NCBI GenBank assembly: GCA_019912885.1
Contig: JAIOHV010000045.1
Span: forward strand, 1 to 46,161
Length of the DNA stretch: 46,161 nt
From: a bacterium
GTDB lineage: Bacteria > Lernaellota > Lernaellaia > JACKCT01
Reading direction: 5' to 3'
Below, piece after piece: positions 3,285 through 28,928 of the stretch. The notes under the pieces were generated by a model. That model was not told the origin of the DNA. It worked only from the letters and a program-made list of their open reading frames with translations, and did no database searches. Both the position numbers and the translations under genes were made by a program. Each line of letters begins with the position of its first letter. Within the stretch, counting starts at the first letter, position 1.

Positions 3285-3986
3285 TTGCGTGACCTGCGGA
3301 CGACAAGCCTCATCGACATTCGTAACTTCCTTCGCGTGCACGACGCGGCGCCGCCGCCATGGAAGTCCGCGGAGGCGGTGATTGAGCATCTGTTCGCGCT
3401 GCTTCGCGGGCACACGGGCGACGACGCGTTCTGGCGCGACCTGAAAACGCTCTGCGCGCGGCTGGAGGACAAACGATTCGATCGGAATGCATTCGCCTGT
3501 GCAAGCGCGCTGGACGCCGCGGATCTGGACGCGGTCATTGATAGACTGCGCGCGGAACTTGGGTTGCTCAATGGATCATCGAACGGCGTGCGCGCGATTT
3601 TCACCCGGCCGCTCGGCGGCGTGGCGGTGCTGGGATTTCTGCTGTTGGCGACGTCGTACTCGTGTTTTTCGGGTGAGGGCGACGACGATAATGACGACGT
3701 GGCGATCACAAGCGAGGATTGTGACCAAGCCGAGTTTCGCGGCTTCGAGGGTCATGAGGCGGCCGTTTATTGCACCTTGATCGATCTCGTTCGAGATTCA
3801 AGCCTCATGAATTGGGAGCAGAACGAAATCCTCTCCTGCATCGCGGGTTTAAATTCGGCCGAGCGCGAGAGTCTTCTCGAAAAATTCCAGGATATGTCCG
3901 ACGAAGCGCTCGCGGAATATCTGCGCGGAATGCAGGAGGCCGGCGGCGAGTGCTGGGAAGACGACGCCTGGGACGACGACCACTAA
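3285..3986 (+). CDS. Tandem paralogue 3 of 3 of the membrane/Asp-linker family
   Basis: 233 residues, starting at a TTG at 3285 preceded by GGGAGG; this start aligns with the Met of copy 2. The hydrophobic segment again ends at Cys127, but the acidic linker is only 18 residues before the C-terminal domain (Cys146 onward), which ends W-D-D-D-H. This copy is the most diverged (its C-terminal helix reads A-E-Y-L-R-G-M) yet keeps all four C-terminal cysteines and the terminal motif, which implies selection rather than decay. The next gene is convergent and its stop lies 28 bases away; I see no clear terminator between them. Confidence 0.85.
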   Translation: MRDLRTTSLIDIRNFLRVHDAAPPPWKSAEAVIEHLFALLRGHTGDDAFWRDLKTLCARLEDKRFDRNAFACASALDAADLDAVIDRLRAELGLLNGSSNGVRAIFTRPLGGVAVLGFLLLATSYSCFSGEGDDDNDDVAITSEDCDQAEFRGFEGHEAAVYCTLIDLVRDSSLMNWEQNEILSCIAGLNSAERESLLEKFQDMSDEALAEYLRGMQEAGGECWEDDAWDDDH

Positions 3987-4014
3987 GACATCGCGCGCGC
4001 AACGAATCCCGCCC

Positions 4015-5082
4015 CTACGCGCGATTCTCCCGCACAATCTTCAGGCAGTACGGATTGAGGCCGATCGAGCCGGTCGCGGTGTAGGCGACGGAGCGGCAGC
4101 CCGCGCGGCAGATCGCGCCGAACGCACACGACGCGCACGCGCCCTCGAGCATCGTGTCGTCCCAGGCGCGTGCGTAGGGATAGCGCGCGTCGTCGCCCCA
4201 GATTTCGGCCAGCGGCGCCTCGCGCACGTTGCCCGTCACGAACTCGTCCGGCAGCGTGACGCACCCTTTCACGTAGCCCGCGGGCGTGATCGCCATGGTC
4301 GTCAGGCCCGCGCCGCAGCCGCCCCACACCGGCCGCGCATTCATCTCCCGGCCGCGCAGGATGGGCTCCTCCACCGTCATGTAGCCGATCGTGCAGTGCA
4401 TCGGCGCGTGCACCTTCTTTTCGCGCGCCGCGAGCATCAGCACGCGCGACACACGCTCCAGATCCCGCGGCTCGCACATCAGCTCCGCGCGGCGATCCGA
4501 CGCGCTGCCGGACATCTGGCACAGATGCACCTGCCAGCGCGGCACGCCAAGCGCAACGACGAGGCGATACGTCTCGACGAGAAATCGCGCGTTCATCGCG
4601 TTGACCTGCGTCACGGCGCGACACGCCGCGCCGGCACGGACGATCATTTCGATCAATGCGACGGCCGCGTCGAACGTGCCGGTCACGCGGATGTCGAGCG
4701 CCGGGCGAAGTCGGTCGTGGATGGGTTTCGGGCCGTCGAGCGAGACGGCAAATTCGGTCACGCCCGCGTCAATCGCGGCCTCGAGCGTGTCGTCGGAAAA
4801 TCCGTGGCCGCTCGCGAAAAGGCGCACGGTTACGCCGCTTTCGGAAAGGCGTCTCGCGACGCGCTCCCATCCCGGATAAAGAATCGGCTCACCCCCGGTG
4901 AACACGACCGTCTTGACGCCGAGCGCTGCGAGATCGCCCGCCGTCGCCAGCGCCTCGTCAATCGACAGTTCGTCGCGCGCGGGCACGGCGGCGTGCGTCC
5001 GGCAGTGCCGGCAATCCAGGCGGCAGACGCGCGTCAGCTCCCAAAAGCAGGTGCGCGGCGACGGCTGTGCGACGCGTTTCAC
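4015..5082 (-). CDS. Radical SAM protein with C-terminal SPASM-type cysteines
   Basis: 355 residues. The GTG start at 5082 overlaps the TGA stop of the upstream hydrolase gene (GTGA), so translation is coupled. The radical SAM cluster motif is Cys20-x3-Cys24-x2-Cys27, followed by GGEP at 63-66. The C-terminal quarter has further cysteines (W-G-G-C-G-A-G, V-K-G-C-V-T, C-A-S-C-A-F-G-A-I-C-R-A-G-C and a late N-P-Y-C) typical of a SPASM domain binding extra [4Fe-4S] clusters. Family knowledge: such enzymes mature ribosomal peptides or proteins, or act in heme d1 and siroheme-derived heme synthesis (NirJ/AhbC/AhbD group), whose N-terminal style W-E-x-T-R-x-C is similar. The substrate is unknown. 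The nearby paralogue triplet is convergent to it, so any link is speculation. A longer frame upstream is a shadow of the hydrolase gene. Confidence 0.88.
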   Translation of the reverse strand: MKRVAQPSPRTCFWELTRVCRLDCRHCRTHAAVPARDELSIDEALATAGDLAALGVKTVVFTGGEPILYPGWERVARRLSESGVTVRLFASGHGFSDDTLEAAIDAGVTEFAVSLDGPKPIHDRLRPALDIRVTGTFDAAVALIEMIVRAGAACRAVTQVNAMNARFLVETYRLVVALGVPRWQVHLCQMSGSASDRRAELMCEPRDLERVSRVLMLAAREKKVHAPMHCTIGYMTVEEPILRGREMNARPVWGGCGAGLTTMAITPAGYVKGCVTLPDEFVTGNVREAPLAEIWGDDARYPYARAWDDTMLEGACASCAFGAICRAGCRSVAYTATGSIGLNPYCLKIVRENRA

Positions 5083-8683: not shown

Positions 8684-8685
8684 CG

Positions 8686-10032
8686 ATGAAAACGCTCGCA
8701 CGATGGCTGCCGCTCTTCGCCTTCCTGTTCCTTCTCGCGTTGCCGGGCTGCGGTTGCGGCGGCGACGATGACGATTCCGCTGATGGCGGTACCGGTGTCG
8801 ACGATGACACGTCCGACGACGACGCGGCGGACGACGACGCGGCGGACGACGACACCGCCTTTGACGACGATTTCGATGACGACGCGAATGACGACGACAC
8901 CGACGACGATGCGTCCGATGACGATGCCGGCGACGACGACACCGAACCGGTTTGCGATTTCGCGGCGCACGATCCGCTCGTTGAGGCGGGCATCGCCGCG
9001 CTTGCCGCATACGATCCCGGCGCCGCTCAAGCGAACTTCGACGCGGCGCTCGCGGTCTGCCCGGAAATCGCCGACGGCAAGATGGGATTGTTGCTTTCGG
9101 GCCTGCAGCGCGTCGCCCAGGGGATCCCCGCGTCGCTCGCCGCGCTCGCCGACTTTCCCGATGTCGATTGGGCCGTGTTGCAACAGGATGTGCGCGACGG
9201 CTTGCTGCCGATCTGCGCGGACATGCTCGCGATCGCGGACGATCTGATCGTGGCGCACCCGGGCCCGCGTCTTTTCGCCAGCCCGATGCCGGTGTGGATC
9301 GACGGCGAGCACATCATCGTTGACGCGGGCGGCGAATGGGACGTGGCGGACGTGCGCGACGTGGCGGGCCTCGTGGGATTTGTCGCGGGCGTCGCGGACG
9401 TCGTCATGTCGCTCGACCTCAATGCGGACTGGACGCTTTTGGCGGGCACGCCCGGCGGATACGATCCGATCGAATACGTGCATTATTACGCGGGCAAACT
9501 CCTTGCGATGTTCGCGGACGCGAGTTATCCCGGCTTCCTCACGTTCGCGCCCGGCGGCGAGGCGGATTTTGCGGCGGCCGCGATCGCGATCGGTCACGCG
9601 TCGACGAGTCTTTTCGACGGCCTCACGGCCGTGCGTGCGGAAACCGATCCGCAGACCGACGACGTGACGGCGTACGTCGATGAGAACGGCGACGGCGCGT
9701 GGACCGACGGCGAGGTTTACCGCATCCCCTACATGGGCGTTCTTTCGCCGCGGCAAAACAGCGTGATCGAAAACGCGATGATCCTGTTCGAGGATCTCGG
9801 CCCGGCGCTCCTCGATGCGGGACCGGAGGACATCGATCCGCTTTGGCCGAACTGGCTGCCGCTCGACGATCTCAATTTCATCCTCGACCTTTTTACGTCG
9901 TACGTGCCGATGCCGGACCTGCCGCCGGTGCCATTCCCCGTCGGGTTCTGGTTCTACAACCCGCCGGCGGACGGCCTTCGCGGCGTGGCCGAGGCGCTCG
10001 CCCAGGCTCTGTATGATGTGACGATGCCGTAA
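8686..10032 (+). CDS. Asp-tethered lipoprotein of unknown function
   Basis: 448 residues from the ATG at 8686, two bases after the upstream stop; an in-frame ATG at 8665 lies inside the previous gene. The type II signal peptide ends L-P-G-Cys22, followed by Gly-Cys and about 55 residues dominated by Asp with Ser/Thr/Ala, a disordered acidic tether. The mature domain starts with a TPR-like helical hairpin (A-A-Q-A-N-F-D-A-A-L-A-V-C), then an alpha-rich body with a calcium-loop-like D-E-N-G-D-G-A-W-T-D-G segment. I do not recognise a catalytic motif. Overall it resembles helical outer-membrane lipoproteins that scaffold other factors. Cotranscription with the DUF4091 protein suggests a cell-surface role. 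Confidence 0.85.
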   Translation: MKTLARWLPLFAFLFLLALPGCGCGGDDDDSADGGTGVDDDTSDDDAADDDAADDDTAFDDDFDDDANDDDTDDDASDDDAGDDDTEPVCDFAAHDPLVEAGIAALAAYDPGAAQANFDAALAVCPEIADGKMGLLLSGLQRVAQGIPASLAALADFPDVDWAVLQQDVRDGLLPICADMLAIADDLIVAHPGPRLFASPMPVWIDGEHIIVDAGGEWDVADVRDVAGLVGFVAGVADVVMSLDLNADWTLLAGTPGGYDPIEYVHYYAGKLLAMFADASYPGFLTFAPGGEADFAAAAIAIGHASTSLFDGLTAVRAETDPQTDDVTAYVDENGDGAWTDGEVYRIPYMGVLSPRQNSVIENAMILFEDLGPALLDAGPEDIDPLWPNWLPLDDLNFILDLFTSYVPMPDLPPVPFPVGFWFYNPPADGLRGVAEALAQALYDVTMP

Positions 10033-15339: not shown

Positions 15340-16782
15340 TTATTCCGTCGCCGGCGTGAACAGATCGTTCACGAACTCGCGCAGGAGGCGCTCGCGCAAT
15401 TTCGGCGGAAGCGCGTTCATGATCGTGTTGATCTCGGCCAGGCGCTCGGGGAGCGCCGCGCCGGTGATGCCCGCGGCGCCGAGCAGGTTCGCGTACATCT
15501 CCGGCGTGAGATCGTTCGCCAAAACGCCGTCGAGAATGCCAGCGAGGCCGGAGACATCGATCGGCGGATGCGTCTTCGCCGCCTCCACCGCGCCGGCGAG
15601 ATCGGCAAGCATCGCGTCCGCGTGCGCGACGTTTTGCATGCTGATCGACAGGTGGATATTTTCCTTTGAATTCGCGAACGCGAGCTGCGGCTGCACGTAC
15701 CAGCCGCGCGCTTTCATCTCGTCGATGATGACGAACACGTTCGCCTCGTCGGACGTGAAGGAGACGAGGTTCATTTCGGGTTCGCCGAGAACGCGCAGGC
15801 CCGGAATTTCGCGCACGCCCGCGGCGACGCGGCGGGTCGCCTGAAGCTGATGCCGCGCGATCTCGAGGTAGCGCTCCTCGCCGACGTAATTCAGCACAGC
15901 CCACGCCGCGGCAAGCGCGCCGCCGGATTTGGTACTCTGCACGGTCGTGTTCACCATCGTGTATCCCGTCCACGACGCGCACGTGAAGATCTGATGGCGG
16001 CGCAAATCCTTCGATTTGTAGAGCACGAGCGAGGCGCCCTTGGGGCAGAACGCGTATTTGTGCAGGTCCATCGAAAGGCTCGTCACGCCGGGCACGTCGA
16101 ACTCGAAGCGCGGCACCGGCTCGCCCAGGCGCCGAAACCACGGCAGCAGGAATCCGCCCATGCACGCATCGACGTGAAAGAGCAGGTCACGCTCGGCCGC
16201 GAGCGCGCCGATCTCCTCGATCGGATCGATGACGCCGTGCGCGTATTGCGGCGCGGAACCGACAAGCAGGATCGTGTTGTCGGTGATCGCGTTGCGGATC
16301 GCGTCGACGTCGGCGCGAAACGTCTCGGGCGTAACCGGCACGCGCACCGCCTTCACGCCGAGGTACGCTTCCGCCTTGGTGAACGCCGCGTGCGCGGTGT
16401 CGGGCAAAATCATTTCCGGTTGCGCGATGTGCGGGCGCGTCGCGCGGGCGAAATCGCGCGCGGTCTTCACCGCGAGGATGATGCTTTCGGTGCCGCCGCT
16501 CGTGAAGTTGCCGGCCGTGTTCGCATCGCCCTTCACGTGCGCCGCGGCCATCGCCACGATCTCGTTTTCCATGCGCAACATGCTCGGGAAGACCGTGGGA
16601 TCAAGCGCGTTTTCGGACAGGAATTCGAGATACGCGCGCTTGCCGACTTCCTCGATATCCTTGCCGGCGTCGTAGGTGTACGCCCAAACGCGCCCGGTGC
16701 GCCAGTTGAGATCGTCCTTGCGAAACTCTTCCAGCTTCGCGAAGACCTCGTCCTTGCCGATTCCCTTGTCCGGAATTTTCAT
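15340..16782 (-). CDS. PLP-dependent decarboxylase/lyase resembling sphingosine-1-phosphate lyase
   Basis: 480 residues; the ATG at 16782 is chosen because AAGGAA lies 9 bases upstream. It has the group II decarboxylase fold: G-N-F-T-S-G-G-T-E-S-I (PLP phosphate site), H-V-D-A-C-M-G-G-F (cofactor Asp) and S-M-D-L-H-Lys242-Y (Schiff-base lysine). The N-terminal order N-W-R-T-G-R-V-W-A-Y-T-Y follows S1P lyases more closely than glutamate or tyrosine decarboxylases. Bacterial members cleave sphingosine phosphates or act on other phosphorylated or amine substrates. There is no N-terminal membrane anchor, so it is cytoplasmic. No sphingolipid synthesis gene is visible in this window, so the substrate remains open; MfnA-like amino acid decarboxylation is the alternative. 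Confidence 0.87.
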   Translation of the reverse strand: MKIPDKGIGKDEVFAKLEEFRKDDLNWRTGRVWAYTYDAGKDIEEVGKRAYLEFLSENALDPTVFPSMLRMENEIVAMAAAHVKGDANTAGNFTSGGTESIILAVKTARDFARATRPHIAQPEMILPDTAHAAFTKAEAYLGVKAVRVPVTPETFRADVDAIRNAITDNTILLVGSAPQYAHGVIDPIEEIGALAAERDLLFHVDACMGGFLLPWFRRLGEPVPRFEFDVPGVTSLSMDLHKYAFCPKGASLVLYKSKDLRRHQIFTCASWTGYTMVNTTVQSTKSGGALAAAWAVLNYVGEERYLEIARHQLQATRRVAAGVREIPGLRVLGEPEMNLVSFTSDEANVFVIIDEMKARGWYVQPQLAFANSKENIHLSISMQNVAHADAMLADLAGAVEAAKTHPPIDVSGLAGILDGVLANDLTPEMYANLLGAAGITGAALPERLAEINTIMNALPPKLRERLLREFVNDLFTPATE

Positions 16783-17256
16783 GATGCGGTTTTCCTTGCC
16801 GTCGAACATTGCGTGCGATGCGAAACGCGCATCATTCGGATGCGGGCTGTCAGCGTCAAGGCGGCGTACGGGGAATGGTGTTTGCGGAATCCGGGCTGGC
16901 ATCGCAATTCGGCGGTACGCAGCGCGGCAAAGCCGCAACCAAATTAGCCGTGCCCGTGCCCGATGGAATAGTCTGGAAGGCTGAAAGACTGGAAGTCTGG
17001 AAGGTCATCGCAGGAAGGCATCCGCGGATTTCGCGGATACTTTGTCTTTCACGCCGACGACACTCCCAAGACCCTGATCTGCGCAATCGGCGTAATCTGC
17101 GGATAGAAAAAACTTCGCGTGAAAACAAGAAACGAGCGGATAGTCGTACAGGGGGCACGGGGAAGACACGGAGGCCACGGGGCGAAGGAATGCGGACAAC
17201 GACACCGGGTCCGAGGCGCCGCCATGAACCTTCCCGTCTTCCGGCTTTCCGGCTTC
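16783..17256. other. Gene-free 474-bp interval built of short repeats
   Basis: No convincing gene. Around 16971-17006 there are repeats of CTGGAAG/CTGAAAG (CTGGAAGGCTGAAAGACTGG and on). Around 17229-17256 the complementary CTTCCCGTCTTCCGGCTTTC occurs, so imperfect inverted repeats bracket the interval. Inside are GCGGATTTCGCGGATAC, AATCTGCGGATAG and a CACGGGGAAGACACGGAGG run. It separates two minus-strand genes and looks like accumulated repeat sequence rather than a regulatory region. Confidence 0.55.
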
Positions 17257-17756: not shown

Positions 17757-19871
17757 TCATCCCGCGTTCCATACGTAGCCCGTGAGGCGGTCGAACTGGA
17801 CCACGACGCGTTCCCCGTCCCGGAACGCGACGGTTCTCTCGTCGCGCCAGTTCCAGACATCGCTATCGTGCGTGTCGCCGATGGAAATTCCGATCCGATG
17901 GGACCCTTCGGCAAGCGGCAGGTGTTCGATCGCGACGCTGTTACCGTCGCGCCAGAGGCCGCGCGGTTCGAACGACGCCTCGCGCGCGAGCCGGCCGTCG
18001 ACCTCAATACGCAGGCGTACCGCCGCGCGAGCGCGTTCACAGACGCGATCGTGCCGCATGTGCGGCGGCTGTTTGGCCATCTCTTCCTCGGACAGCTCGC
18101 GGCAGGCTTCGCTCACCTCGCCCGGATGCTTGAACGACACGACAAGCCGGGCGCCCCCGGTGGGCGCCGCGAGATAAGGCGCGTCGCTGCCGATCACGAT
18201 GCCGGCGGCCAAAAGGACTCCGGCGGTGATCGCCGCCGCGATCGTCCAAGGCTTGCGTTCGCGGTTTTTCGGAGCGATGCCCGCCCGGAATCGAATCGCC
18301 TCGGCCTTGAGCGCCTCCACCTCGCCGTAGCCGAATTCCACGAGCCGGACACGCCGCGCATCGAGGCGATCGACGCGCAGCGACGGAGCGCGCCGCGCCG
18401 CAAGGCGCAGGCGGGTCCATTTCGAACCTTCCCGATAGCGGCACTGGTGCTCCCGGCAACCGGCGATAAGGACACCTCGCGCGCCCCGTCGAAGGGCGCG
18501 TTCCACCGTCATCATGTGCGTCCATCCGACGCACGGCGCCATCAGGACAACGTAGCCCGGCAGATCCTCGCACCGGCCCGTCGCGGGATCGACGCCAAGC
18601 GACGCGCCGCCGGAATCGGCGCCGACGATCGCAAGAAACGTCTCCTCGCCCGGCGCCGCGGCGCCCAGCCAATCCTCAACGCGCCGCCTTTGTTCGCTCA
18701 GGTTAAACCAGGGCAGGCCGATCGCGTTCGAGTCGCAGGAGCCCGCGCAGATGCCGCACCCCACGCACCGGTCGGCGATCACCACCGCCTGTTCGGGAAC
18801 GTCCTTTCCGTCGGTTCGCGGCGCCAAGCGGATCGCGTTGTAAGGGCAGTCCAGAAAACATTGGCGGCAGGCGTTGCAGCGAGACGTCTCGACTTGCGCG
18901 ATGCGGGCGCGCCGCCGCGCGATCAGCCACGGCAAAGGAAAAAGCGCCGCGGCGCCGGCGGCCAGAACAAACCAAAGCGCGCCGCCTCCCAGGCGATCGG
19001 TCATCGCCAGCGGCGCGAGATACCAGTGATCGATCGTCACCGAACCCGGCTCGACCAGCATGCGCGCCGGTTTCGCGCTCGCGGCCGGATACAGCGCGGA
19101 CATGGCGAGGACCGCGGCGGCCAGCGCGATCGAGAGCGTTCGCCCGGTGAGAAATGCCGGGCGCGAAACGCGGGCGATGTGCAGCCACAGGAAAATCCCC
19201 ATCGTGAGGGGGATCAGCATGTGGAGAAAGAAAACGACGAAAAACAGGAAGGTATTGACGCCCCCGTCGGTCAAGAAACCGCGCGAGAAGGGGTCAGCGA
19301 AGATGGGCAGGACATCGAGCATCCGGGCCGTGCCGAGAGCGATCTGCCGCGCGCGCTCGTCCCAAACCAGCCAGTAACCGAGCCAGCCAACAAACCACAA
19401 CGTGGCGACGAGGAGTAGGCCGGTGATCCACGCAAGCCACCGGGCGCCGGTGAATCGCCGCGACGCGAAAAACTTCAGGGCGTGCAAAAGCGCGAAGGCC
19501 ATGCACACGTCCGAGGTATACCGGTGCAGCGAACGCAGGAGCCCGGCGGTCAGGGGAGACCGTCCCATCGCTTCGACGGAATCCCACGCCGAATGAACGC
19601 TCGGGGAATACCAGAAAAGCAGCACGACGCCGCTTGCGACCGCGGCGAGAAACGACACGCTCGCGATCGCGCCGCTTTGCGTGATGGGGTTGAGCGACGG
19701 CGGAAAGATCGCGCCAAGCGCGCTTTCGACGCGCGTCACGGCGAAGTCGAGCGCGCGCCAAACGCGGTCGAATCGCGTCGGCGGATCGACGGCCATGCCC
19801 GCGCCTTCCGGCGACATCGCCTTGGCCGGCGGGGTGTGGTCGTCCGAGAGCCAGGCGGCGGGTTCGACCAT
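17757..19871 (-). CDS. Fusion protein: di-heme cytochrome b, two [4Fe-4S] ferredoxin sites, FlpD/MvhD-like domain, C-terminal membrane-anchored domain
   Basis: 704 residues. Residues 60-315 form a cytochrome b/b6-type membrane domain with two bis-His heme pairs, H116-x13-H130 and H217-x13-H231. Then come two [4Fe-4S] motifs, C332-x2-C-x2-C-x3-C-P and C369-x2-C372-x2-C375-x3-C379. Residues about 410-530 resemble the MvhD/FlpD family (A-P-C-V-G-W, then G-C472-R-E-H-Q-C477-R-Y), the [2Fe-2S] delta subunit linking hydrogenases or dehydrogenases to heterodisulfide reductase. A membrane span (543-561) and an extracytoplasmic beta-rich domain end the protein. Last gene of the oxidoreductase operon, 3 bases after the SCO gene. 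I infer an electron conduit between the quinone pool and a soluble or FeS partner; direction and partner are unknown. Confidence 0.85.
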   Translation of the reverse strand: MVEPAAWLSDDHTPPAKAMSPEGAGMAVDPPTRFDRVWRALDFAVTRVESALGAIFPPSLNPITQSGAIASVSFLAAVASGVVLLFWYSPSVHSAWDSVEAMGRSPLTAGLLRSLHRYTSDVCMAFALLHALKFFASRRFTGARWLAWITGLLLVATLWFVGWLGYWLVWDERARQIALGTARMLDVLPIFADPFSRGFLTDGGVNTFLFFVVFFLHMLIPLTMGIFLWLHIARVSRPAFLTGRTLSIALAAAVLAMSALYPAASAKPARMLVEPGSVTIDHWYLAPLAMTDRLGGGALWFVLAAGAAALFPLPWLIARRRARIAQVETSRCNACRQCFLDCPYNAIRLAPRTDGKDVPEQAVVIADRCVGCGICAGSCDSNAIGLPWFNLSEQRRRVEDWLGAAAPGEETFLAIVGADSGGASLGVDPATGRCEDLPGYVVLMAPCVGWTHMMTVERALRRGARGVLIAGCREHQCRYREGSKWTRLRLAARRAPSLRVDRLDARRVRLVEFGYGEVEALKAEAIRFRAGIAPKNRERKPWTIAAAITAGVLLAAGIVIGSDAPYLAAPTGGARLVVSFKHPGEVSEACRELSEEEMAKQPPHMRHDRVCERARAAVRLRIEVDGRLAREASFEPRGLWRDGNSVAIEHLPLAEGSHRIGISIGDTHDSDVWNWRDERTVAFRDGERVVVQFDRLTGYVWNAG

Positions 19872-19874
19872 GCG

Positions 19875-20828
19875 TCAGACGCCGAGGCCGGCCGATTCCG
19901 AAAGCAGCAGCCGGAGCGCCGAGATCAGCCAGCGCTCCTGCCGGTCGCCGAGCGACAGGCGATACGCGATCCGGCCCGCGCGGTCGATCAGGATGAACAG
20001 GTTCGCGTGGTCGATGACCCCCGTTTCCGGATTGCGCGTCCGCGCGACGGAAAATCGGTCGAGAAGGTCGTTGACGACGGGGGCGTCGCCGGTCAGCAGG
20101 CGGTAGAGCGGCGCCGAAACCCCCTGTCCCTTCGCCATCTCGGCGAGCACGGCGGAGGTGTCGTGCTCAGGGTCAAGCGTGATGGCGGCGACGGTGAGTC
20201 CCGCGCGTTCGTCCTCGCTCAACGCCCCCACCGCGTTTTTGGTCTGACCCATGATCATCGGGCACGTAAAGCCGCACGAAGCGTACACGGCGGTGACAAG
20301 GACGACCCGCCCGCGCAGATCTTCCAGGCGTACCGCGGCGCCGTCGTGATCCGTGAGCGCGAACGACGGCGGAACAAGCGCCGTGCGCAGTTCCTCGGCG
20401 GGGAAGGGCAGTTCGGTGTCATTCGGGGTTGAGGCAAAGGCCGCGAAGCCCGCGCCGCACGCGGCGACAAGCAAAAGGGCCGCGGCGGCATACGGAATCG
20501 CCGCGGCCGGGCGAGCCGCAATTTCGCGCAACGGCCGGCGCCAAAAGGCATAAATCACCGATCCCAGGATCACCGGCTGGAGCAGGAAGGCGGCGACGTA
20601 GCCCCATTCCATCCGCCCGGTGGCGGGGTCGTACCCAAAACACCAGACGCGGAAATCCTCGGCGAACGCGGAAAATCCCGTGGCGCCTGGCGGCGAAAGG
20701 AGCACCGTGATTTCGATCGCCATATACGCCGCGACCACAACGAGCATGAACACGGGAAAGCGCCAACTCTCGAAGAAGGCATTGAGCGCGCCGGGAGCGC
20801 CGCGGCCGTTCAGGACTTCCGTGGACAC
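19875..20828 (-). CDS. SCO1/SenC copper chaperone with an N-terminal membrane domain
   Basis: 317 residues. The GTG at 20828 is chosen because GGAGAGG lies 6 bases upstream; an in-frame ATG at 20843 has no ribosome site. The thioredoxin-like SCO domain (about 145-310) has the copper-binding C185-G-F-T-C189-P and the distal ligand His274 in D-H-A-N-L-F-I-L-I-D. Family role: insertion of copper into the CuA site of oxidase subunit II, or thiol redox upkeep of that site. Ordinary SCO proteins have one N-terminal span; here about 135 residues with three hydrophobic segments precede the domain, including a F-R-V-W-C-F-G-Y-D-P loop. Its position directly after subunits II and I fits maturation of that complex, as in norSY-senC clusters. 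Confidence 0.9.
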   Translation of the reverse strand: MSTEVLNGRGAPGALNAFFESWRFPVFMLVVVAAYMAIEITVLLSPPGATGFSAFAEDFRVWCFGYDPATGRMEWGYVAAFLLQPVILGSVIYAFWRRPLREIAARPAAAIPYAAAALLLVAACGAGFAAFASTPNDTELPFPAEELRTALVPPSFALTDHDGAAVRLEDLRGRVVLVTAVYASCGFTCPMIMGQTKNAVGALSEDERAGLTVAAITLDPEHDTSAVLAEMAKGQGVSAPLYRLLTGDAPVVNDLLDRFSVARTRNPETGVIDHANLFILIDRAGRIAYRLSLGDRQERWLISALRLLLSESAGLGV

Positions 20829-20858
20829 GATGGACCTCTCCATTGGGGGGGCGTGGCG

Positions 20859-22679
20859 TCAGCGCACGTGCCAGACGTCGGCGAGCGCTTTCCAGTTTGC
20901 GAAGTAATAGACCGCGAAAGACGCGAGGAAGACGAGGACGAAAACGAGCGTTCCGGGCGTCTTGTGGCTCTCATGACCGCCCGCCCGCTCGTCGCGAATC
21001 GCTGCGCCGGTCGCCCGCGCGGCGGCGATTTCCGTCGTGGACTTCGACCAGGGATCCATCGCCTGTCCGACGTTCGAGCGCCCGAGGAAAACCGCGTGCA
21101 CGGTGAGAAGGATGAAGGCCATCAGTCCGAGAAACGCGATGACCGAGCCCACGCCCATCAGTCCGAGCATGACATGCGCGCCCGGGTCGAAGCCCGCGGC
21201 GAACTGCGCGCCCGTGAACTCCACGTCCCAGTGCCGGCGCGGCACGCCGTAGGAACCGGCGAACGACATGCCAAGCGCCATCAGCGTGATTCCGCCGCCG
21301 AACAGGTAGGGTTGAATACGCGCCAGCGACCGGAAGGAATATTCGCGCCGGAAGATCAGCGGCACGACGTAATACGCGAGGCCCATGAAGGCCAGCGTGG
21401 TTCCGCCGACGACGGTCGTGTGGAAGTGGCCCGGAATGCGCAGGGTGTTGTGCGCGAGGATGTTGATCTGCTGCGTACCGAGCGTGACGCCCGTGATGCC
21501 GCCGAGGAATCCGAAGATCACCAGCGAAAGGAAAAACGCCGAAAATCCGGGATTTCCCCACGGCGCGGAGAACACCCAGCCGAACAGCCCGCGGTTGTAT
21601 CCCTTGCCGCGCATCGAAACCTCGACGGACGCGGGCACGGTGAAGCCGTGGATCATCGAGGCCAGGACCGCGAGGTACATCGCGTACGAGGTGTTCCAGA
21701 TCTTCCAGCCCGCGCTGACGCCCGGGTCCACGAGCAGGTGGTGCGCCGACGCGAGGTTGATGAACAGGATGTAAAGGACGAACGCGCCCCGGCAGACCGC
21801 CTGGTTCAAGGGCTTGGCGCCGGTGGTCAGCGTCGCGAGGAAATACCAGCAGGCGACCATCGCGCAGACGTTTACCTGCTGCGACTGATGGCCGAGCCCC
21901 CACCACACGAGACGGTACCAGCCCGGATCGGGCGCGCCCACAAGGCCGATCGACCAGAGGAAGGTCGGGATCATGACGATCGCGCCGTGCAGCAACGTCA
22001 CCACGGCGATGATCGCCGCGGCGATGGCGCCGAACACGACAAGCGGCACCGAGCCTTCGTAGGTGCGATCGCGCCGGGCGATGTACACGGTGGCGAAGAA
22101 GTTGAAAACGCCGATCAGCGTGCCGACCGCCACGAGGATGATGCCGAGGTAGAAAAGCGGATGGGCGATGAGCGGCACGTAAGACGTCATCAGCACGTCC
22201 GCCTTGCCGAGCAGGATCACCGCGTCCACCATCAACGCGCCCGTGAGCATCATGCCGAAGGTGACCCACGCGAGGGCGGTGGAGAAAAGGCGGCTGTTCA
22301 GAAGCACGGTCGAGGCGAAATAGAGGATTGCGACCTCGAAGAACAGGATCCAGAAGATCAGCATGTTCAGGCCGTGCAGGGTCAGGATCCGGTAATACCA
22401 CTCGGCCGGAAGCAGATGGACGCTCGGCCACCGCGTCAGCCCGAGCAGGATCGACGCAATCCCGCCGATCAGAAGAAAGACGACCGCGAAAACGGCCTGG
22501 AGCTTGATGAATTTCTCCGCGACCAGGCAAACCGGCAGCCCGGTCGTATCGCAGGCGCGGACCTGACCGGGGAGGTGATTGCCTCGCGGCGGCCCCGGCC
22601 GTTCCGGACGTATTGGCGTTTCGGGAACATCGAACGATCCCGGCAGGGCGGCATCGAGGCTGATATCGGTGGTGGTCAT
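20859..22679 (-). CDS. Heme-copper oxidase superfamily subunit I lacking the active-site tyrosine (NO-reductase-like)
   Basis: 606 residues, about 12-14 membrane helices. All six metal-ligand histidines are visible: H102 (helix II), H264 (helix VI, CuB), H313-H314 (helix VII, CuB), H418 and H420 (helix X). In oxygen-reducing A and B types helix VI reads G-H-P-x-V-Y, with the cross-linked Tyr at His+4. Here it reads G-H264-Q-S-Q-Q268-V-N, so Tyr is replaced by Gln. Loss of this Tyr is characteristic of nitric oxide reductases derived from oxidases. Partner genes are a CuA subunit II upstream and SCO downstream, the order of the sNOR norSY-senC clusters of ammonia oxidisers. Inferred reaction: 2 NO to N2O at the membrane. 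A divergent terminal oxidase remains the alternative. Confidence 0.85.
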   Translation of the reverse strand: MTTTDISLDAALPGSFDVPETPIRPERPGPPRGNHLPGQVRACDTTGLPVCLVAEKFIKLQAVFAVVFLLIGGIASILLGLTRWPSVHLLPAEWYYRILTLHGLNMLIFWILFFEVAILYFASTVLLNSRLFSTALAWVTFGMMLTGALMVDAVILLGKADVLMTSYVPLIAHPLFYLGIILVAVGTLIGVFNFFATVYIARRDRTYEGSVPLVVFGAIAAAIIAVVTLLHGAIVMIPTFLWSIGLVGAPDPGWYRLVWWGLGHQSQQVNVCAMVACWYFLATLTTGAKPLNQAVCRGAFVLYILFINLASAHHLLVDPGVSAGWKIWNTSYAMYLAVLASMIHGFTVPASVEVSMRGKGYNRGLFGWVFSAPWGNPGFSAFFLSLVIFGFLGGITGVTLGTQQINILAHNTLRIPGHFHTTVVGGTTLAFMGLAYYVVPLIFRREYSFRSLARIQPYLFGGGITLMALGMSFAGSYGVPRRHWDVEFTGAQFAAGFDPGAHVMLGLMGVGSVIAFLGLMAFILLTVHAVFLGRSNVGQAMDPWSKSTTEIAAARATGAAIRDERAGGHESHKTPGTLVFVLVFLASFAVYYFANWKALADVWHVR

Positions 22680-22688
22680 GTCCGTCCC

Positions 22689-23213
22689 CTATTCCACGAT
22701 GATGCGGCCGGTCATCATGTGATGCTGGATGCCGCAGAATTCGTTGCAGACGATGGAGTACACGCCCGTCTTGGTCGGCGTGACCGTCAGGACGTGGTCG
22801 TACCCCGGAAGGATTTGAAAGTTCATGTTGACCGGTTGCAGCGAGAATCCGTGCTGGATGTCCAGCGACGAAACGTGCAGGCGATAGGTCTGGTCTTTTT
22901 TCAGTTTCAGGATCGGCCACCAGCGCCACATCTGCCCCATCAGGTAGGCGTCGCCGCCCGGCGCGGGCTCAACGATCGCCACGCCGTTCTCTTCGCCGAC
23001 CTTGTTGGTTTCGATGAAACGCGCGACGCGGTCATAAAACGCGGCCGGCGTGACGCGATAGGCTTCGCCGGTGCTGTTCTGTTTTCCCTTGAAGTGCCAA
23101 TACGGCATCATCAGGAACATCACCAGGCACCAGGAAAGCGCGAGCCCGACCCACAACCGCTCGCCTCCGGTCGGCGCCTTGAACCATCCCGCGGCGGGAC
23201 TGGAAATACTCAT
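22689..23213 (-). CDS. Heme-copper oxidase/NO reductase subunit II with complete CuA site
   Basis: 174 residues; the ATG at 23213 is preceded by AAGGA. One N-terminal membrane span (about 20-38), then a cupredoxin domain outside the membrane. The binuclear CuA ligands are all present with canonical spacing: His121 (D-I-Q-H), Cys156, Glu158, Cys160, His164 and Met167. It is shorter than typical aa3 subunit II, which has two N-terminal spans, and is closer to ba3-type and NorS-type subunits. It would accept electrons from a cytochrome c or other soluble donor and pass them to subunit I, whose gene starts 9 bases downstream. Confidence 0.9.
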   Translation of the reverse strand: MSISSPAAGWFKAPTGGERLWVGLALSWCLVMFLMMPYWHFKGKQNSTGEAYRVTPAAFYDRVARFIETNKVGEENGVAIVEPAPGGDAYLMGQMWRWWPILKLKKDQTYRLHVSSLDIQHGFSLQPVNMNFQILPGYDHVLTVTPTKTGVYSIVCNEFCGIQHHMMTGRIIVE

Positions 23214-23232
23214 GCCAATAGTCCTTTTTTGG

Positions 23233-23385
23233 TTACGGCAGTTGGGCCGGCGCCATGAGCGCAAGCTCGATCCAGCCCCACGCGGTGTACGAAAGGAACG
23301 GAATCAATAGCCCCAGCGCCAGAAGCAGCCAGGGGTTGTCCATCAGTTTCTGAAAAAGATGCCGGTCGCTATCTTCAAGGGCCAT
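23233..23385 (-). CDS. Small single-span membrane peptide of the oxidoreductase operon
   Basis: 50 residues; the ATG at 23385 has GGGAGG upstream at good spacing. There is one hydrophobic helix (about 17-45, L-L-L-A-L-G-L-L-I-P-F) after a charged N-terminus. Its start overlaps the end of the upstream subunit I-like gene by 43 bases and it precedes subunit II by 19 bases, so it is translated within the operon. Small subunits like this are common in heme-copper oxidases and often assist assembly or stability. I do not recognise a named family. Confidence 0.7.
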   Translation of the reverse strand: MALEDSDRHLFQKLMDNPWLLLALGLLIPFLSYTAWGWIELALMAPAQLP

Positions 23386-24788
23386 GAAATCCTCCCGTGG
23401 TTTCCTGCCGTCGTGCGTTCGCGCGCCGTCCGGTACGCGTGCGCCATGATCCAAAGAAACAAAATGCCGCCGGCCACCGCGAACGCGCCGCCGGTCGCCA
23501 TGATTCCTAGTCCGAGCTTCTCGACCCCGGTCCGGATGTGTTGCTCGGCGCCGTAGGTCTTGCGCGCCAGGCCCTGCATGCCCGCGAGCCCGAATCCGAG
23601 CGCGAAGACCACCTGTCCGAATCCGTAGATCGCCGGTTGCCAGCACGCCGCGCGCCGCACCGACGCGCGGTCGGGCAGGTATCCCCATCGATGAACGAAA
23701 AGATACGACGCGGACATGAACGCCACCGTCACCGCGCCGATCGACGCGTGGTAGTGCGCGGGGATGACGGTATTGGAGCCCTTGATGGCCGCGCCGAACG
23801 CAAAGCCCGCCACGGAAAGCGCGGCGCTCGCCGCGAATCCGGGCAGCCAGGGGGACCGCCACGCGCCGCGAAGGTCAAGGCCGTTGCGACGTTCGCGAAC
23901 GATGGCGCGCACGCACAGCGCGAGGATCGCCATCACCACGGGAAAGATGCCGAACTGCATCAGCCGCGTGAACGCGAACCGGTACGATCCCGTCTGAATT
24001 CCGTGGTACGCCGCATAAGGCGCAAGGACGAGCGGCAGAAGGAACACGGCGTACAACGCCCGCGCAGTGCGCCCGCCGATCGGCTCGCGTCCCAGCGCGG
24101 CGCCAAGAAGCAGGAACCAGCACGCCGTCATCGCAGCGACGTTCGCGAACTGCAAGACGTGCCCGCCGCCCCAGAAAACGATCTCGTACCGCGCGTCCGC
24201 AGGCATTCCGGCCGGCATGGCAAGTGCGGCCGCGGCGAACGTCGCGATCGCCAGCACGAACGCGATCGCCGCCGCGCGGACGCCGTGCGCCGTGGCCCGC
24301 GGAACGCACGTCTCGCGGCAAGACGTGGCGTTTCGGCGAAACAGCGCCGCGAAACCCGGCAGGAGCGACGCGCCAAACAAGGCCAGGCCAAACAGAAACG
24401 CGGGATGGTCAACGACCGGGACGTAGTTCGACAAAACCGGCGGCGCCCATGTGACAAATGGCACGGCCACGATCAGAAAAATGCCGGCGACCGCGGCCGC
24501 CGGCCCGGCATGGGTAAACGTCTTACGCGGCCCGGGTGAAGCCACGACGGACGAAAGGGTGCCGAGGAATGCGTAGAACCACACAACGAACGCCAGATTC
24601 ACGTGGACGACGAGCGAACGCTTGAACAGGTCCGCGTCGGGCAGATACCGATCAAGCGGCGGCGTGCGGCCGATGACGAGCACGATCGAAAACAGGCCCG
24701 CCAGAACGAGGCTGAATACGGAGACCGTCAACCAGCGTCGCGCCATCGTGTTGCCGGTTTCGGCGGTGGGGAAAGTCCGCGGACTCAT
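23343..24788 (-). CDS. Second, degenerate heme-copper oxidase subunit I-like membrane protein
   Basis: 481 residues, polytopic. It keeps a helix II His (H62), a helix VI His (H210 in G-G-G-H-V-L-Q-F-A-N-V) and the helix X pair H345-x-H347, but the helix VII His-His is replaced by Tyr261-His262, so one of three CuB ligands is missing. The His+4 residue is Phe, not Tyr. The helix VI pattern G-H-x-x-Q-x-x-N-V-x-A-M-x-A-C-W is shared with the other subunit I of this operon, marking them as related. First gene of the operon, facing the Rrf2 gene. Possible roles are a second heme-bearing subunit of the same complex or an electron-transfer or NO-binding protein. The start at 24788 has a weak ribosome site; an ATG 14 codons later is possible. 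Confidence 0.8.
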   Translation of the reverse strand: MSPRTFPTAETGNTMARRWLTVSVFSLVLAGLFSIVLVIGRTPPLDRYLPDADLFKRSLVVHVNLAFVVWFYAFLGTLSSVVASPGPRKTFTHAGPAAAVAGIFLIVAVPFVTWAPPVLSNYVPVVDHPAFLFGLALFGASLLPGFAALFRRNATSCRETCVPRATAHGVRAAAIAFVLAIATFAAAALAMPAGMPADARYEIVFWGGGHVLQFANVAAMTACWFLLLGAALGREPIGGRTARALYAVFLLPLVLAPYAAYHGIQTGSYRFAFTRLMQFGIFPVVMAILALCVRAIVRERRNGLDLRGAWRSPWLPGFAASAALSVAGFAFGAAIKGSNTVIPAHYHASIGAVTVAFMSASYLFVHRWGYLPDRASVRRAACWQPAIYGFGQVVFALGFGLAGMQGLARKTYGAEQHIRTGVEKLGLGIMATGGAFAVAGGILFLWIMAHAYRTARERTTAGNHGRISWPLKIATGIFFRN

Positions 24789-24821: not shown

Positions 24822-24845
24822 TCAATAGACATTTTAGTCTATTGA
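24822..24845. promoter_or_regulatory. Perfect 9-bp-arm palindrome, candidate Rrf2 operator
   Basis: TCAATAGAC-6 bases-GTCTATTGA, a perfect inverted repeat in an AT-rich island 33 bases upstream of the operon's first start codon. Dyads of this form (TAGAC/GTCTA around a short AT spacer) are typical of Rrf2-family operators. The adjacent divergent rrf2-type gene is the obvious regulator. Confidence 0.6.
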
Positions 24846-24853
24846 GTCGAAAA

Positions 24854-24867
24854 TTGACCTGGATCAA
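24854..24867. promoter_or_regulatory. FNR/DNR-type binding site candidate
   Basis: TTGAC-CTGG-ATCAA matches the CRP/FNR-family consensus TTGAT-N4-ATCAA at 9 of 10 positions. It sits between the Rrf2 palindrome and the Rrf2 gene, 65 bases upstream of the operon start, where an activator would act. FNR, DNR and NNR proteins sense low oxygen or NO. Confidence 0.55.
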
Positions 24868-24994: not shown

Positions 24995-25480
24995 ATGCTG
25001 CTGCCGCAAACAAGTCAGTACGCCTTGCGCGCGATGGCGTGCCTCGCCGCCCTGCCGCCGGGCGAATCCATCAACTCGCGGGATCTCGCGGAGGTGTCCG
25101 CCATCCCGCGACGCTTCCTGTCGAAGGTCATGCGTTCGCTTGTCGTCGCCGGCCTCGTGTCCGCGCGCAAGGGGCATCACGGCGGGTTTGTGCTGGCGCG
25201 CCCCACGAAGTCGATCAGTTTCACCGAGATCCTGGACGCGACGCACTTCACGATGGACCCGACGCACTGCGCTTTTGGATTCAAGGCCTGCGACGAAAAA
25301 AATCCGTGCCCGCTTCATCCCGCGTGGAAAGAGCTGAAAGAGATATACGGAGATTGGGCGGCAGGGACGACGCTTTCGAGCACGGTCCGAAAAAAGAAAC
25401 CCGCCCCGCGCGGAAAAGGCTCGTCGCGCCGCGTGAGCGGCGTCAGGACAAGCCGAGCGCGCCCAACGCCTTCTTCGTGA
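24995..25480 (+). CDS. Rrf2-family transcriptional regulator with Fe-S-type cysteines
   Basis: 161 residues; the ATG at 24995 is preceded by GGGGAGAGGGA. Winged-helix Rrf2 signature: Q-T-S-Q-Y-A-L-R-A-M at the start, R-D-L-A-E-V-S-A-I-P-R-R-F-L-S-K recognition region, and G-H-H-G-G-F-V-L-A-R in the wing. Cys92, Cys99 and Cys105 are spaced like the [Fe-S] ligands of NsrR/IscR/RsrR-type members, so redox or NO sensing is plausible. About 35 basic residues extend beyond the normal end. It is divergent from the heme-copper operon across a 206-base gap with a palindrome and an FNR-like site, which suggests it controls that operon and itself. Its 3' end overlaps the convergent ligD gene by 38 bases. 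Confidence 0.9.
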   Translation: MLLPQTSQYALRAMACLAALPPGESINSRDLAEVSAIPRRFLSKVMRSLVVAGLVSARKGHHGGFVLARPTKSISFTEILDATHFTMDPTHCAFGFKACDEKNPCPLHPAWKELKEIYGDWAAGTTLSSTVRKKKPAPRGKGSSRRVSGVRTSRARPTPSS

Positions 25481-28034
25481 TCGATTGCCGGATCGATTCG
25501 ATGCCCGCCCACGGGTCCGCGCGACGAAGCCGTTTGCCGATATCCGCCAGCGTGATCGCGTCGCCGCGAATGCCGTCTTCGACCTCGTCCCAGGTGACGG
25601 GGGCGGAGATCGGAGCGCCGGCACGCGCGCGCAAGGAGTAAGGCGCCACGGCGGTCTGGCCGCGCGCGTTGCGAAGGTAGTCGATGAAGATTTTCCCCTC
25701 GCGCTTTTTCTTGCTCATCGTCGCCACGTAGCGATCGGACTCGTTTTTCGCGACGCGCTCGGCGATCGCGCGCGCGAAGTCCTTGGCCTCGTCCCAGCCG
25801 CTTCGCCGCTCGATCGGCACGACGACGTGCAGCCCCTTGCCGCCGGACGTTTTCGCGAAACTCTTAAGCCCAAGATCCGCGAACACCTCGCGCAACATCA
25901 GGGCCGCGTGCGTCACCGCCTTCCATTCCACGTCGGGCGCGGGGTCGAGATCGAAGATCAACCGGTCCGGGCTCTCGATGCGATCCGCGCGGCAGCCCCA
26001 CGCGTGAAATTCCAGCACGCCGTATTGCACGAGCGACACCAGGCCGCGCGCATCCGCGACGACGAGATAATTTCCCGTGCCGTCCTTTTCGCGGATCGGC
26101 ACCACCTTCGTATGGGGCGGCGGATCGTCGCCGAAATGCTTCTGGAAAAACGTGCCGTCATCAACACCGGACGGAGCGCGCAGGAAAGTCAGCGGACGGT
26201 TCGCGAGATGCGCTAGCATCGCGGGCGCGACGCGTTCGTAATATTCCGCGATGGCGCGCTTGTTCAGGCCGGCGTCGGGATACACAACGCGATCCGGGTG
26301 CGTGATGCGTATGCCCGCGACGGTCGCGTCATTCGAGCCTTTCGATCGCTCGCGCGGCGGTGGGCGGTCCGATTTTGATGCGGCGGCGGCGATTCGCTCC
26401 GGTTCCTCGCGCACCACGTCGGCCGCGCTTTTATCCGCGCGAAGACCCTGATATGACGGATGGCGAAGGACGCCGTCCTTCGTCCACTCCGTGAACGCCA
26501 CCTCGGCGACGAGATTCGGCGTCACGAAATGCGCCCCCTTTTTGTCCGCGCGCGAAAGCTCGCCCGCGAACGGAGAGGTCTTGCGCTCGATATTCGACAG
26601 CGTCGAGGCGAGATTCTTCAGCGTCTTGTCGTCGAATCCCGTGCCGACGCGCCCGGCGTATACCAGATCGCCGCCGTCGTTGTGATAGCCGACGAGCAAG
26701 GCGCCGAAGCCCTGGCGCGATCCGCCGGGCTCGGTGAAACCGCCGATGACGAACTCCTGCCGGTGCGTGCACTTGACCTTCACCCACGTGCGCGTGCGCT
26801 TGCCCGCGGCGTAGGACGCATCGGCGCGCTTGCTGACGATGCCCTCCAGGCCAAGCCGGCACGCATTGTCGTACACGGCGCCGCCCTGTCCCTCGATGTG
26901 ACCTCCGAAACGCACGATCGCGTTTGAGTCTGATGGCGGCACGATCGCGGCGAGCGCGCGTTTGCGCTCGGAAAGCGGCGCGCCGGTGAGGTCGTATCCG
27001 TCAAGGTGGAGCGCGTCGAAAACAAAATACACGAGCCGCCCGGCATCGACGCCGGACAGCACGTTCTGCAGGGCCTGAAAGCTTGTGCGCCCGTCGGGGA
27101 GCAGCACGACGACCTCGCCGTCGAGCACCGCGTCCTTCACGTCGATGTCGGCAAGCGCATCCGCGATGGGCGAGAACTTTTTCGTCTGATCCTTGCCGCT
27201 GCGGCTGACGAGCCTCGCCTTGCCGCGCTCGATCCGCGCGATCGCGCGGTAGCCGTCGTATTTGATCTCGTGGATCCACCCGGCGCCCGCCGGCGCCTCG
27301 TCCACGAGCGTCGCGAGCTGCGGGCGCGCATCTTTCGGCATCGACGCCTTTTTCGCGCCCTTCATCCTCGAGAGGGCGGGGCGGGCGGACTTTTTCGCGC
27401 CGGAGGCGACGCGGGCTTTTTTCTTCGGCGCGATCGATTCGGGCCTGGCCTTCTCCTCGCCTTCCGGGCCCCAGACGCGATCGGCGTCGGCCGCGATTTC
27501 GGTCATGGAACGCCCGGTCGTTACGCTCGTGTCCGCGGATTTGAGGATGTCCTTTTTCGTCGCCGCCTCGTCGTTCTTTTTGATGAGCAGCCAGCCGTCT
27601 CCGTCGCCGCGTTTCATGCGGACGAGCGCGAACGCGCCGGCGAGGCGCTCGCCATCGAGACGGAATTTGAGATCGCCGTTTTTCAGGCCCTCGTCCGGAT
27701 CGTTCAGGGGCTCCCACGTGCCGCGATCCCACAGCATCACCGTGCCGCCGCCGTATTCCTTCTCGGGGATGACGCCCTCGAAATCGCCGTACTTGACGGG
27801 GTGATCCTCGACGCGCACCGCAAGGCGCTTCTCGCCCGGGTCAAGGCTCGGGCCTTTCGGGATTGCAAAGCTCAACAGCACGCCGTCGTGCTCGAGGCGA
27901 AAATCGAAATGCAGCCGCGAGGCGTCATGCTTCTGCACGACAAAAAGGCGCCCGGACCGGCTCGTTTGCACCTGCCCGCGCGGCTCGGAGGTTTTGCGGA
28001 AGTCGCGCTTTTTTTCGTATTCCCGAAGTTCCAT
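25443..28034 (-). CDS. ligD: ATP-dependent DNA ligase D with phosphoesterase, ligase and polymerase domains
   Basis: 863 residues with all three LigD modules in the order PE-LIG-POL. The phosphoesterase (about 1-165) keeps H36, H42, D44, R46, H78 and Y82, spaced as in the Pseudomonas enzyme. The ligase has its adenylated Lys258 in E-I-K-Y-D-G and the later motif H-L-D-G-Y-D. The primase-like polymerase (about 560-863) has D-L-D-P and the S-G-G-K-G-L-H-V-V-V-P block. A Lys/Ala/Pro-rich linker joins PE and LIG. Role: gap filling, 3' end cleanup and sealing in Ku-dependent non-homologous end joining. The ku gene lies just upstream on the same strand. Confidence 0.97.
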   Translation of the reverse strand: MELREYEKKRDFRKTSEPRGQVQTSRSGRLFVVQKHDASRLHFDFRLEHDGVLLSFAIPKGPSLDPGEKRLAVRVEDHPVKYGDFEGVIPEKEYGGGTVMLWDRGTWEPLNDPDEGLKNGDLKFRLDGERLAGAFALVRMKRGDGDGWLLIKKNDEAATKKDILKSADTSVTTGRSMTEIAADADRVWGPEGEEKARPESIAPKKKARVASGAKKSARPALSRMKGAKKASMPKDARPQLATLVDEAPAGAGWIHEIKYDGYRAIARIERGKARLVSRSGKDQTKKFSPIADALADIDVKDAVLDGEVVVLLPDGRTSFQALQNVLSGVDAGRLVYFVFDALHLDGYDLTGAPLSERKRALAAIVPPSDSNAIVRFGGHIEGQGGAVYDNACRLGLEGIVSKRADASYAAGKRTRTWVKVKCTHRQEFVIGGFTEPGGSRQGFGALLVGYHNDGGDLVYAGRVGTGFDDKTLKNLASTLSNIERKTSPFAGELSRADKKGAHFVTPNLVAEVAFTEWTKDGVLRHPSYQGLRADKSAADVVREEPERIAAAASKSDRPPPRERSKGSNDATVAGIRITHPDRVVYPDAGLNKRAIAEYYERVAPAMLAHLANRPLTFLRAPSGVDDGTFFQKHFGDDPPPHTKVVPIREKDGTGNYLVVADARGLVSLVQYGVLEFHAWGCRADRIESPDRLIFDLDPAPDVEWKAVTHAALMLREVFADLGLKSFAKTSGGKGLHVVVPIERRSGWDEAKDFARAIAERVAKNESDRYVATMSKKKREGKIFIDYLRNARGQTAVAPYSLRARAGAPISAPVTWDEVEDGIRGDAITLADIGKRLRRADPWAGIESIRQSITKKALGALGLS

Positions 28035-28073: not shown

Positions 28074-28928
28074 CTACGGCGCCCGGCGCGCGCGCTGTGG
28101 CTGTTTTGGCGGCGGGCTTTTGGCCTTTTTCTTCTTCGCGGATTCCTTCACCGACTTGTTGAGCAGCTCCATCATGTCGATGACCTTGGCCCCCGGCGCC
28201 TCTTCCTTCTCCGCGATCGGCGGGGGAACCTTGCCGCCGGATTTGGCTTTCTTCTCGATCCACGCGACCAGCTTGTCGCGGTATTCGTCGTGGTACTTCT
28301 CCGGCTCCCAATCCGCGCTCATCGCGTCGACGAGCTTTTGCGCGAGGTCGATCTCCTTTTTCGTGATCTTCAGCGCTTCGAGCTTTTCGTGCGGCACGTC
28401 GTAGTCTTTCGGGTCGCGGATCTCCTCATGGAAACGCAGCAGCTCCAGCACAATCATGTCGCCTTCCACGCCCACGGCGGAAAGGTGCTGGCGCGTGCGG
28501 ATGACGACCTTCGCGATGCCCACCTTGCCCGAACGGCGGATCGCCTCGCGCAGGATCGCGTACGCCTTCTCGGCCTTCTTGCCCGGCACGAGGTAGTAGG
28601 GCTTGTCGAAATAGACGATCGGAATCGACTCGCGGTCGACGAAATCCTCGATCTCGATCGTCTGCGATGATTCCAGAGCCGCCCGCTTGAAATCCTCGTC
28701 GTCGAGCAGGACGTATTCGCCTTCCTCGTATTCGTACGCCTTGACGATGTCTTCCCAGGGCACTTCCTCGCCGGTTTCCGCGTTGACGCGCTCGTAACGC
28801 ACGCGCGCGCGGTTGCGCGAATCGACCATGTGAAACGACAGTTCCGAGCGCTCCTCGGCCGGAAAAAGCGCGACCGGAACGTTGACGAGCCCGAACGATA
28901 GGTGGCCCTTCCAGGTCGGTCTGGCCAT
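28074..28928 (-). CDS. ku: Ku DNA end-binding protein
   Basis: 284 residues. Typical bacterial Ku core: W-K-G-H-L-S-F-G-L-V-N-V-P-V at the start, Y-E-R-V-N-A-E-T-G-E-E-V, F-D-K-P-Y-Y-L-V-P, and the later L-L-R-F-H-E-E-I-R. A lysine- and proline-rich C-terminal tail (about 255-284) matches the basic extension of many bacterial Ku proteins that modulates DNA threading and LigD recruitment. It forms homodimers that ring DNA ends and recruit LigD, encoded 39 bases downstream. Confidence 0.97.
   Translation of the reverse strand: MARPTWKGHLSFGLVNVPVALFPAEERSELSFHMVDSRNRARVRYERVNAETGEEVPWEDIVKAYEYEEGEYVLLDDEDFKRAALESSQTIEIEDFVDRESIPIVYFDKPYYLVPGKKAEKAYAILREAIRRSGKVGIAKVVIRTRQHLSAVGVEGDMIVLELLRFHEEIRDPKDYDVPHEKLEALKITKKEIDLAQKLVDAMSADWEPEKYHDEYRDKLVAWIEKKAKSGGKVPPPIAEKEEAPGAKVIDMMELLNKSVKESAKKKKAKSPPPKQPQRARRAP

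Follow-up and report, generated by a model that had tools for sequence, protein, structure and literature searches.

The window examined here covers positions 1 to 46,161 of contig JAIOHV010000045.1 (assembly GCA_019912885.1, a bacterium of the Lernaellota). Its minus strand carries, between positions 17757 and 24788, an operon of six tightly packed open reading frames (ORFs) that probably encodes a nitric oxide (NO) reductase of the eNOR type, with glutamine at the active site, together with a copper loader, a quinone-linked electron-transfer protein and a paralogue of the catalytic subunit that lacks the CuB site; we put the probability of this reading at about 75%. What is new here is that a widespread six-gene operon keeps a CuB-less partner, a combination for which we found no description in the available literature (the main eNOR paper lies outside this scope).

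Layout of the operon

All six ORFs were found where an earlier reading, made from the sequence alone (the sequence-only reading), had placed them. The intergenic gaps measure 3-19 bp and the gene for the small peptide overlaps the end of gene 1, the second subunit I; by layout, the genes therefore form one transcription unit. The order is second subunit I (481 aa), a 50-aa peptide, CuA subunit II, subunit I (606 aa), SenC (322 aa) and a cytochrome b/ferredoxin/FlpD fusion (704 aa), with Pfam matches to COX1, COX2, SCO1-SenC, Cytochrome_B, Fer4 and FlpD:

23343 to 24788, minus strand: second subunit I-like protein of 481 aa, a CuB-less heme-copper paralogue with ligands H62, H210, H345 and H347; the start is possibly ATG 24746
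23233 to 23385, minus strand: 50-aa peptide with a single transmembrane (TM) segment, a family peptide in other loci
22689 to 23213, minus strand: subunit II with a complete CuA site (Pfam COX2); ExxW is conserved at the TM start (E35, numbering of the ORF as listed)
20859 to 22679, minus strand: subunit I with Gln268 at the Tyr position and six heme/CuB histidines (Pfam COX1, alignment, tree)
19875 to 20843, minus strand: SCO1/SenC protein with CxxxC (C190, C194) and H279 (Pfam, alignment)
17757 to 19871, minus strand: cytochrome b6-like part (four heme His), two [4Fe-4S] clusters, FlpD and a C-terminal TM/soluble segment (Pfam, PDB profile matches, alignment)

Active site of subunit I

The alignment shows that subunit I carries the predicted ligands for the low-spin heme, the high-spin heme and CuB (H102, H264, H313, H314, H418 and H420), with Gln268 four residues after His264, at the site of the cross-linked Tyr of A- and B-family oxidases. 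The six histidines and Gln268, already picked out in the sequence-only reading, are invariant in 43 aligned relatives, and the family motif GHx(S/A)QQxN occurs without exception in about 130 aligned sequences. In the same alignment column, A- and B-family oxidases have Tyr, NorY of ammonia oxidisers has Asn and cNOR has Glu, while all of the about 130 relatives have Gln. Neither the active-site Glu nor the NorB-type subunit of cNOR/qNOR is found in the operon (alignment, tree). A Tyr supplied from another helix, which would speak against an NO reductase, was not seen: the helix-VII position from which C-family oxidases supply their Tyr is occupied by Ile307 (H313-6), at the level of sequence alignment, which leaves the three-dimensional reach of another Tyr possible.

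Subunit I residues S341, H344, Y279 and mostly T347, together with E35 of subunit II, are conserved at positions of the K-path of ba3 oxidases (by alignment, in a comparison that did not contain the exact eNOR channel residues). NorY has no K-path-like residues in helix VIII. A table in the literature that draws on Hemp and Gennis lists eNOR with Gln and one predicted proton channel and sNOR with Asn and none (PMC8756737). Both the Gln at the Tyr position and a CuA (cupredoxin) subunit II encoded directly upstream of subunit I, as in eNOR, are present here, and eNOR-type is the best name for the predicted enzyme, given by the published diagnostic residue and not by direct comparison with the Rhodothermus marinus enzyme. 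The eNOR family goes back to Hemp and Gennis (2008) and is said to have been characterised in Rhodothermus marinus by Murali et al. in 2024; we take this to be the one biochemically characterised eNOR.

Phylogeny of subunit I

In a maximum-likelihood tree, all 32 Gln-type subunit I sequences form one clade (100/99), with the B family as a separate sister clade (100/98) and sNOR far off. Subunit I is thus outside the Tyr-bearing B-family clade and also lacks the cross-linked Tyr; a placement within a Tyr clade, which would have counted against an NO reductase, did not occur. A constrained clade of subunit I and sNOR was rejected by the approximately unbiased (AU) test (p 0.010). A divergent heme-copper-like subunit I from an Azospirillum brasilense plasmid (L196, match 3001-4314) was excluded from the second tree because of its long branch. 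It has another altered ligand set: HNLHY at helix VI, YH for HH at helix VII and YFH for HFH at helix X.

The closest solved structures and the sister clade of subunit I are ba3-type O2 reductases, and this would fit a divergent B-family oxygen reductase that has lost its Tyr and still respires O2 at low oxygen. B-family ba3 enzymes (Thermus, Aquifex) also have a small peptide and a CuA subunit II beside subunit I, and control by FNR-type regulators, described below, suits microaerobic oxidases too. However, the ba3 enzymes possess the cross-linked Tyr, which is absent from all of the about 130 members here, and none of their examined loci has an operon with SenC and cytochrome b/FeS (iron-sulphur)/FlpD. 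The strong association with nirS and NO-type neighbours, such as a DUF542 protein and cytochrome d1, also argue against O2 respiration, and we regard this explanation as unlikely.

Published eNORs are distributed over Chloroflexi and Alpha-, Beta-, Gamma- and Deltaproteobacteria (PMC8756737). The Bacillus CuA NO reductase, bNOR, is reported from Bacillota only (PMC11388526). The operon resembles eNOR in having Gln in place of the Tyr, a CuA subunit II encoded just upstream of subunit I, a relationship to the B family and a broad distribution, and the residues at its K-path positions may form the K-type channel of eNOR; it differs in the CuB-less paralogue and the cytochrome b/FeS/FlpD partner, both unmentioned in the available eNOR literature. 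Such a composition, and a comparison made with the characterised eNOR sequence outside it, would also suit a separate family of Gln-type NO reductases that reached its Gln independently of eNOR. Since the carriers detected in our searches, such as Thermomicrobium and Defluviimonas, overlap with the published eNOR taxa (PMC8756737), we consider an independent origin improbable.

Comparison with sNOR of ammonia oxidisers

The sequence-only reading had matched the gene order to norSY-senC of ammonia oxidisers. To obtain the corresponding loci, genomes of ammonia oxidisers were located via the AmoA family in the class sample, and their PF00115 (COX1) genes were then retrieved. In two loci, a 207-aa membrane protein comes after NorS, NorY and SenC, in agreement with the norSY-senC-orf1 order listed in PMC4940428; in one of the two, a multiheme protein comes next, which we read as hydroxylamine oxidoreductase. 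The order of CuA subunit, subunit I and SenC is thus shared, and this part of the match stands. The identity of the enzyme does not: NorY carries Asn in place of the Tyr (sequences L186 and L187) and is distant in the tree, the fourth gene is unrelated (207-aa membrane protein versus cytochrome b/FeS/FlpD) and a CuB-less paralogue is absent. The subunit I profile scores NorY with at most 55 bits and B-family sequences with about 250-376 bits. A search with the subunit I protein returned no match at E<=1e-10 in 61 genomes of the family of ammonia-oxidising bacteria, consistent with a distant NorY, and a search for ammonia monooxygenase in 36 gammaproteobacteria chosen for carrying subunit I found no ammonia oxidiser. 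With Asn in place of Gln, separation in the tree, an AU p of 0.010 and an unrelated last gene, we rejected as very unlikely the reading that this is an ammonia-oxidiser sNOR operon carrying additional genes.

Genomic context and regulation

Among 369 gammaproteobacterial genomes, 34 have the Gln-type subunit I. A gene for cytochrome d1 (nirS-type) is present in 31 of these 34 and in 43 of the 335 others (Fisher p 2e-21, kinship ignored); in 13 gammaproteobacteria, the best nirS-type match lies 1.6-18 kb from the subunit I gene on the same contig. Proteins encoded in the flanks include UbiA-type proteins (heme O synthase; 24 of 97 scanned), Rrf2 regulators, cytochrome d1, cytochrome c552 and hemerythrin.

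At 28 loci, including the window, an Rrf2 regulator with conserved cysteines is encoded, and FNR/DNR boxes are present in 18 of the 39 promoters of paralogue-bearing operons: 22 sites were found, compared with 0.04 in mononucleotide shuffles and 0.6 expected from average locus density, in promoters that are mostly from Verrucomicrobiota and hence not independent. One or the other, FNR/DNR box or Rrf2 regulator, marks most promoters of paralogue-bearing operons. In the window, the region upstream of the operon contains:

24995 to 25480, plus strand: divergent Rrf2-family regulator with C-x6-C-x5-C (Fe-S type); the ORF as listed begins at 24842
24854 to 24867, no strand assigned: FNR/DNR-type box TTGACCTGGATCAA, the sole such box in the window
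24822 to 24845, no strand assigned: perfect 9-bp inverted repeat TCAATAGAC-N6-GTCTATTGA, a candidate Rrf2 operator beside the Rrf2 gene

In the proposed mechanism, electrons would enter CuA from cytochrome c, or from quinol through the cytochrome b/FeS protein, and pass via the low-spin heme to the heme-CuB site, where two NO would be coupled to N2O; NO coupling would take the place of four-electron O2 cleavage because the required Tyr is missing. Protons would probably travel from the cytoplasmic side along a K-type path, SenC would load CuA, and the FNR/DNR- and Rrf2-type regulators would turn the operon on at low oxygen or in the presence of NO.

An NO-reductase-like function had been proposed from the sequence alone, and it is well supported indirectly by the missing Tyr, the position outside the Tyr-bearing B family, the co-occurrence with nirS and the predicted FNR/DNR and Rrf2 control. 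Several points weigh against it. The association with nirS carries no correction for phylogeny, activity is known for no member of this exact operon type, and loss of the Tyr alone leaves slow O2 reduction possible. Membership in eNOR rests on the diagnostic Gln, in a comparison that did not include the Rhodothermus marinus sequence. The own genome contains no recognisable match to NirK or NirS; NO would therefore have to come from elsewhere, and the host may scavenge it from other organisms or chemical sources. The same genome has two further COX1-family genes (G000:C167 and G000:C80), and other terminal oxidases are therefore probable in the host.

The CuB-less paralogue

The sequence-only reading had called the second subunit I degenerate. 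This is correct for the CuB site: the helix-VII His pair that completes it is gone, the corresponding positions are variable in 43 sequences, and the full histidine sextet of a heme-copper subunit I is absent. It is not correct for the heme ligands: H62, H345 and H347, as well as the CuB-type H210, are present in every one of the 43 sequences. At E<=0.001, neither Pfam nor NCBIfam has a family that matches the 481-aa protein of the window, although weak matches to COX1 are obtained with 21 of its 39 aligned relatives. Its AlphaFold model (pLDDT 90.4, pTM 0.91) has a heme-copper fold, with a ba3 oxidase as the best PDB match in Foldseek (TM-score 0.70); there are also PDB profile matches, and the paralogue profile aligns with the subunit I profile across 421 columns (E 1e-32).

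The paralogues group together (100/100) as the sister clade of the Gln-type subunits I, but their branches are long and the placement calls for care. Judged from the alignments and the tree, the paralogue is an old, maintained copy of subunit I that should bind two hemes without CuB. Its evolution is faster (mean column identity of 39% versus 63% for subunit I) and two CuB ligands are lost, as would be expected of a functionless duplicate in decay. However, across 43 sequences drawn from many phyla the heme ligands and many further positions do not change, the clade is old, and the gene is retained upstream in all 35 loci with the exact gene order; decay is thus very unlikely.

The likeliest role, which we put forward tentatively, is that of a second two-heme subunit of the complex, passing electrons on or binding NO but not converting it. 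It is doubtful that the paralogue handles NO in its own right as a heme protein, binding, sensing or disproportionating it at a site free of metal B alongside the Gln-type reductase; if true, the heme-copper superfamily would have a heme-only offshoot, catalytic or sensory, kept in at least six phyla. An NO dismutase was considered. The putative, qNOR-like NO dismutase is likewise a heme-copper paralogue with an altered metal-B site, but the substitutions differ: in NO dismutase, one metal-B His is replaced by Asn (PMC3413370), whereas in the paralogue two of the three CuB His are gone, and its clade is related to the B family, not to qNOR. Our literature search for heme-copper paralogues devoid of CuB, or for NO reductases linked to FlpD, returned nothing relevant. 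A heme-copper paralogue that is so widespread and has lost its copper site alone offers a natural experiment on the roles of CuB and of a second subunit I.

Distribution of the operon

Scanning named genomes yielded 80 loci, and the survey of gene order covered 88. The exact order (second subunit I, peptide, subunit II, subunit I, SenC, cytochrome b) is present in 35 of the 88 including the window, and record titles place these in at least six phyla: Myxococcota, Spirochaetota (Leptospiraceae), Verrucomicrobiota, Planctomycetota, Calditrichota and Balneolota. The combination of six genes had been noted as unfamiliar, which is fair with respect to the literature, but it is not rare. A further 18 loci have the five-gene core without the paralogue, 13 have the core with a divergent cytochrome b gene, and a few have the paralogue elsewhere in the cluster.

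Related clusters are found on plasmids of Defluviimonas, Thermomicrobium and Thermus; no relative of the paralogue was found on plasmids. Plasmid records annotate these genes as cytochrome oxidases, and surveys therefore probably overlook this branch of enzymes, whose relevance lies in the product of NO reductases, the strong greenhouse gas N2O. The Thermus plasmid copy adjoins genes for Rrf2 and a DUF542 protein: in Thermus thermophilus (L119, 3182-12052), the Gln-type subunit II/I pair lies near Rrf2, the DUF542 protein, a cytochrome P460 and a multicopper oxidase, possibly a mobile NO-handling cluster.

Other components and neighbouring genes

Subunit II probably starts at ATG 23213 rather than at TTG 23264. 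Its CuA set consists of H138, C173, E175, C177, H181 and M184 (numbering of the ORF as listed), of which all are kept in 89 of 89 sequences except for E175 (87 of 89). This residue set and the Pfam matches agree with the earlier claim of a full CuA subunit II with a SenC partner. The 50-residue peptide, also noted before, is real, with its family detected in more than 80 loci. We dropped it as an unusual feature: several B-family loci, too, encode a small peptide ahead of subunit II, a likeness of size and position.

Pfam likewise confirms the fusion of cytochrome b, FeS and FlpD domains (Cytochrome_B, Fer4, FlpD). Four cytochrome b His and eight ferredoxin Cys are kept in 26 of 26 sequences and the two FlpD Cys in 22-23. 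In profile comparisons with the PDB, the first part matches cytochrome b6 and the middle matches HdrA and MvhD; the C-terminal TM-plus-soluble segment had gone unnoticed and is a separate gene in some relatives. From these domains, the protein could connect the quinone pool with the reductase complex.

Next to the operon, a LigD-like multifunctional DNA ligase (25443-28034) and a Ku-like protein (28074-28928) are read from their sequences as an end-joining pair. Just downstream of it, 15340-16938 reads as a PLP (pyridoxal phosphate) enzyme of the glutamate/sphingosine-lyase-like type (SxDxHK-type motif). Two lipoprotein-like ORFs (8665-10032 and 43477-45672) have an Asp-rich stretch right after the lipobox Cys (CGCGGDDDD and CSCGDDDDDDD).

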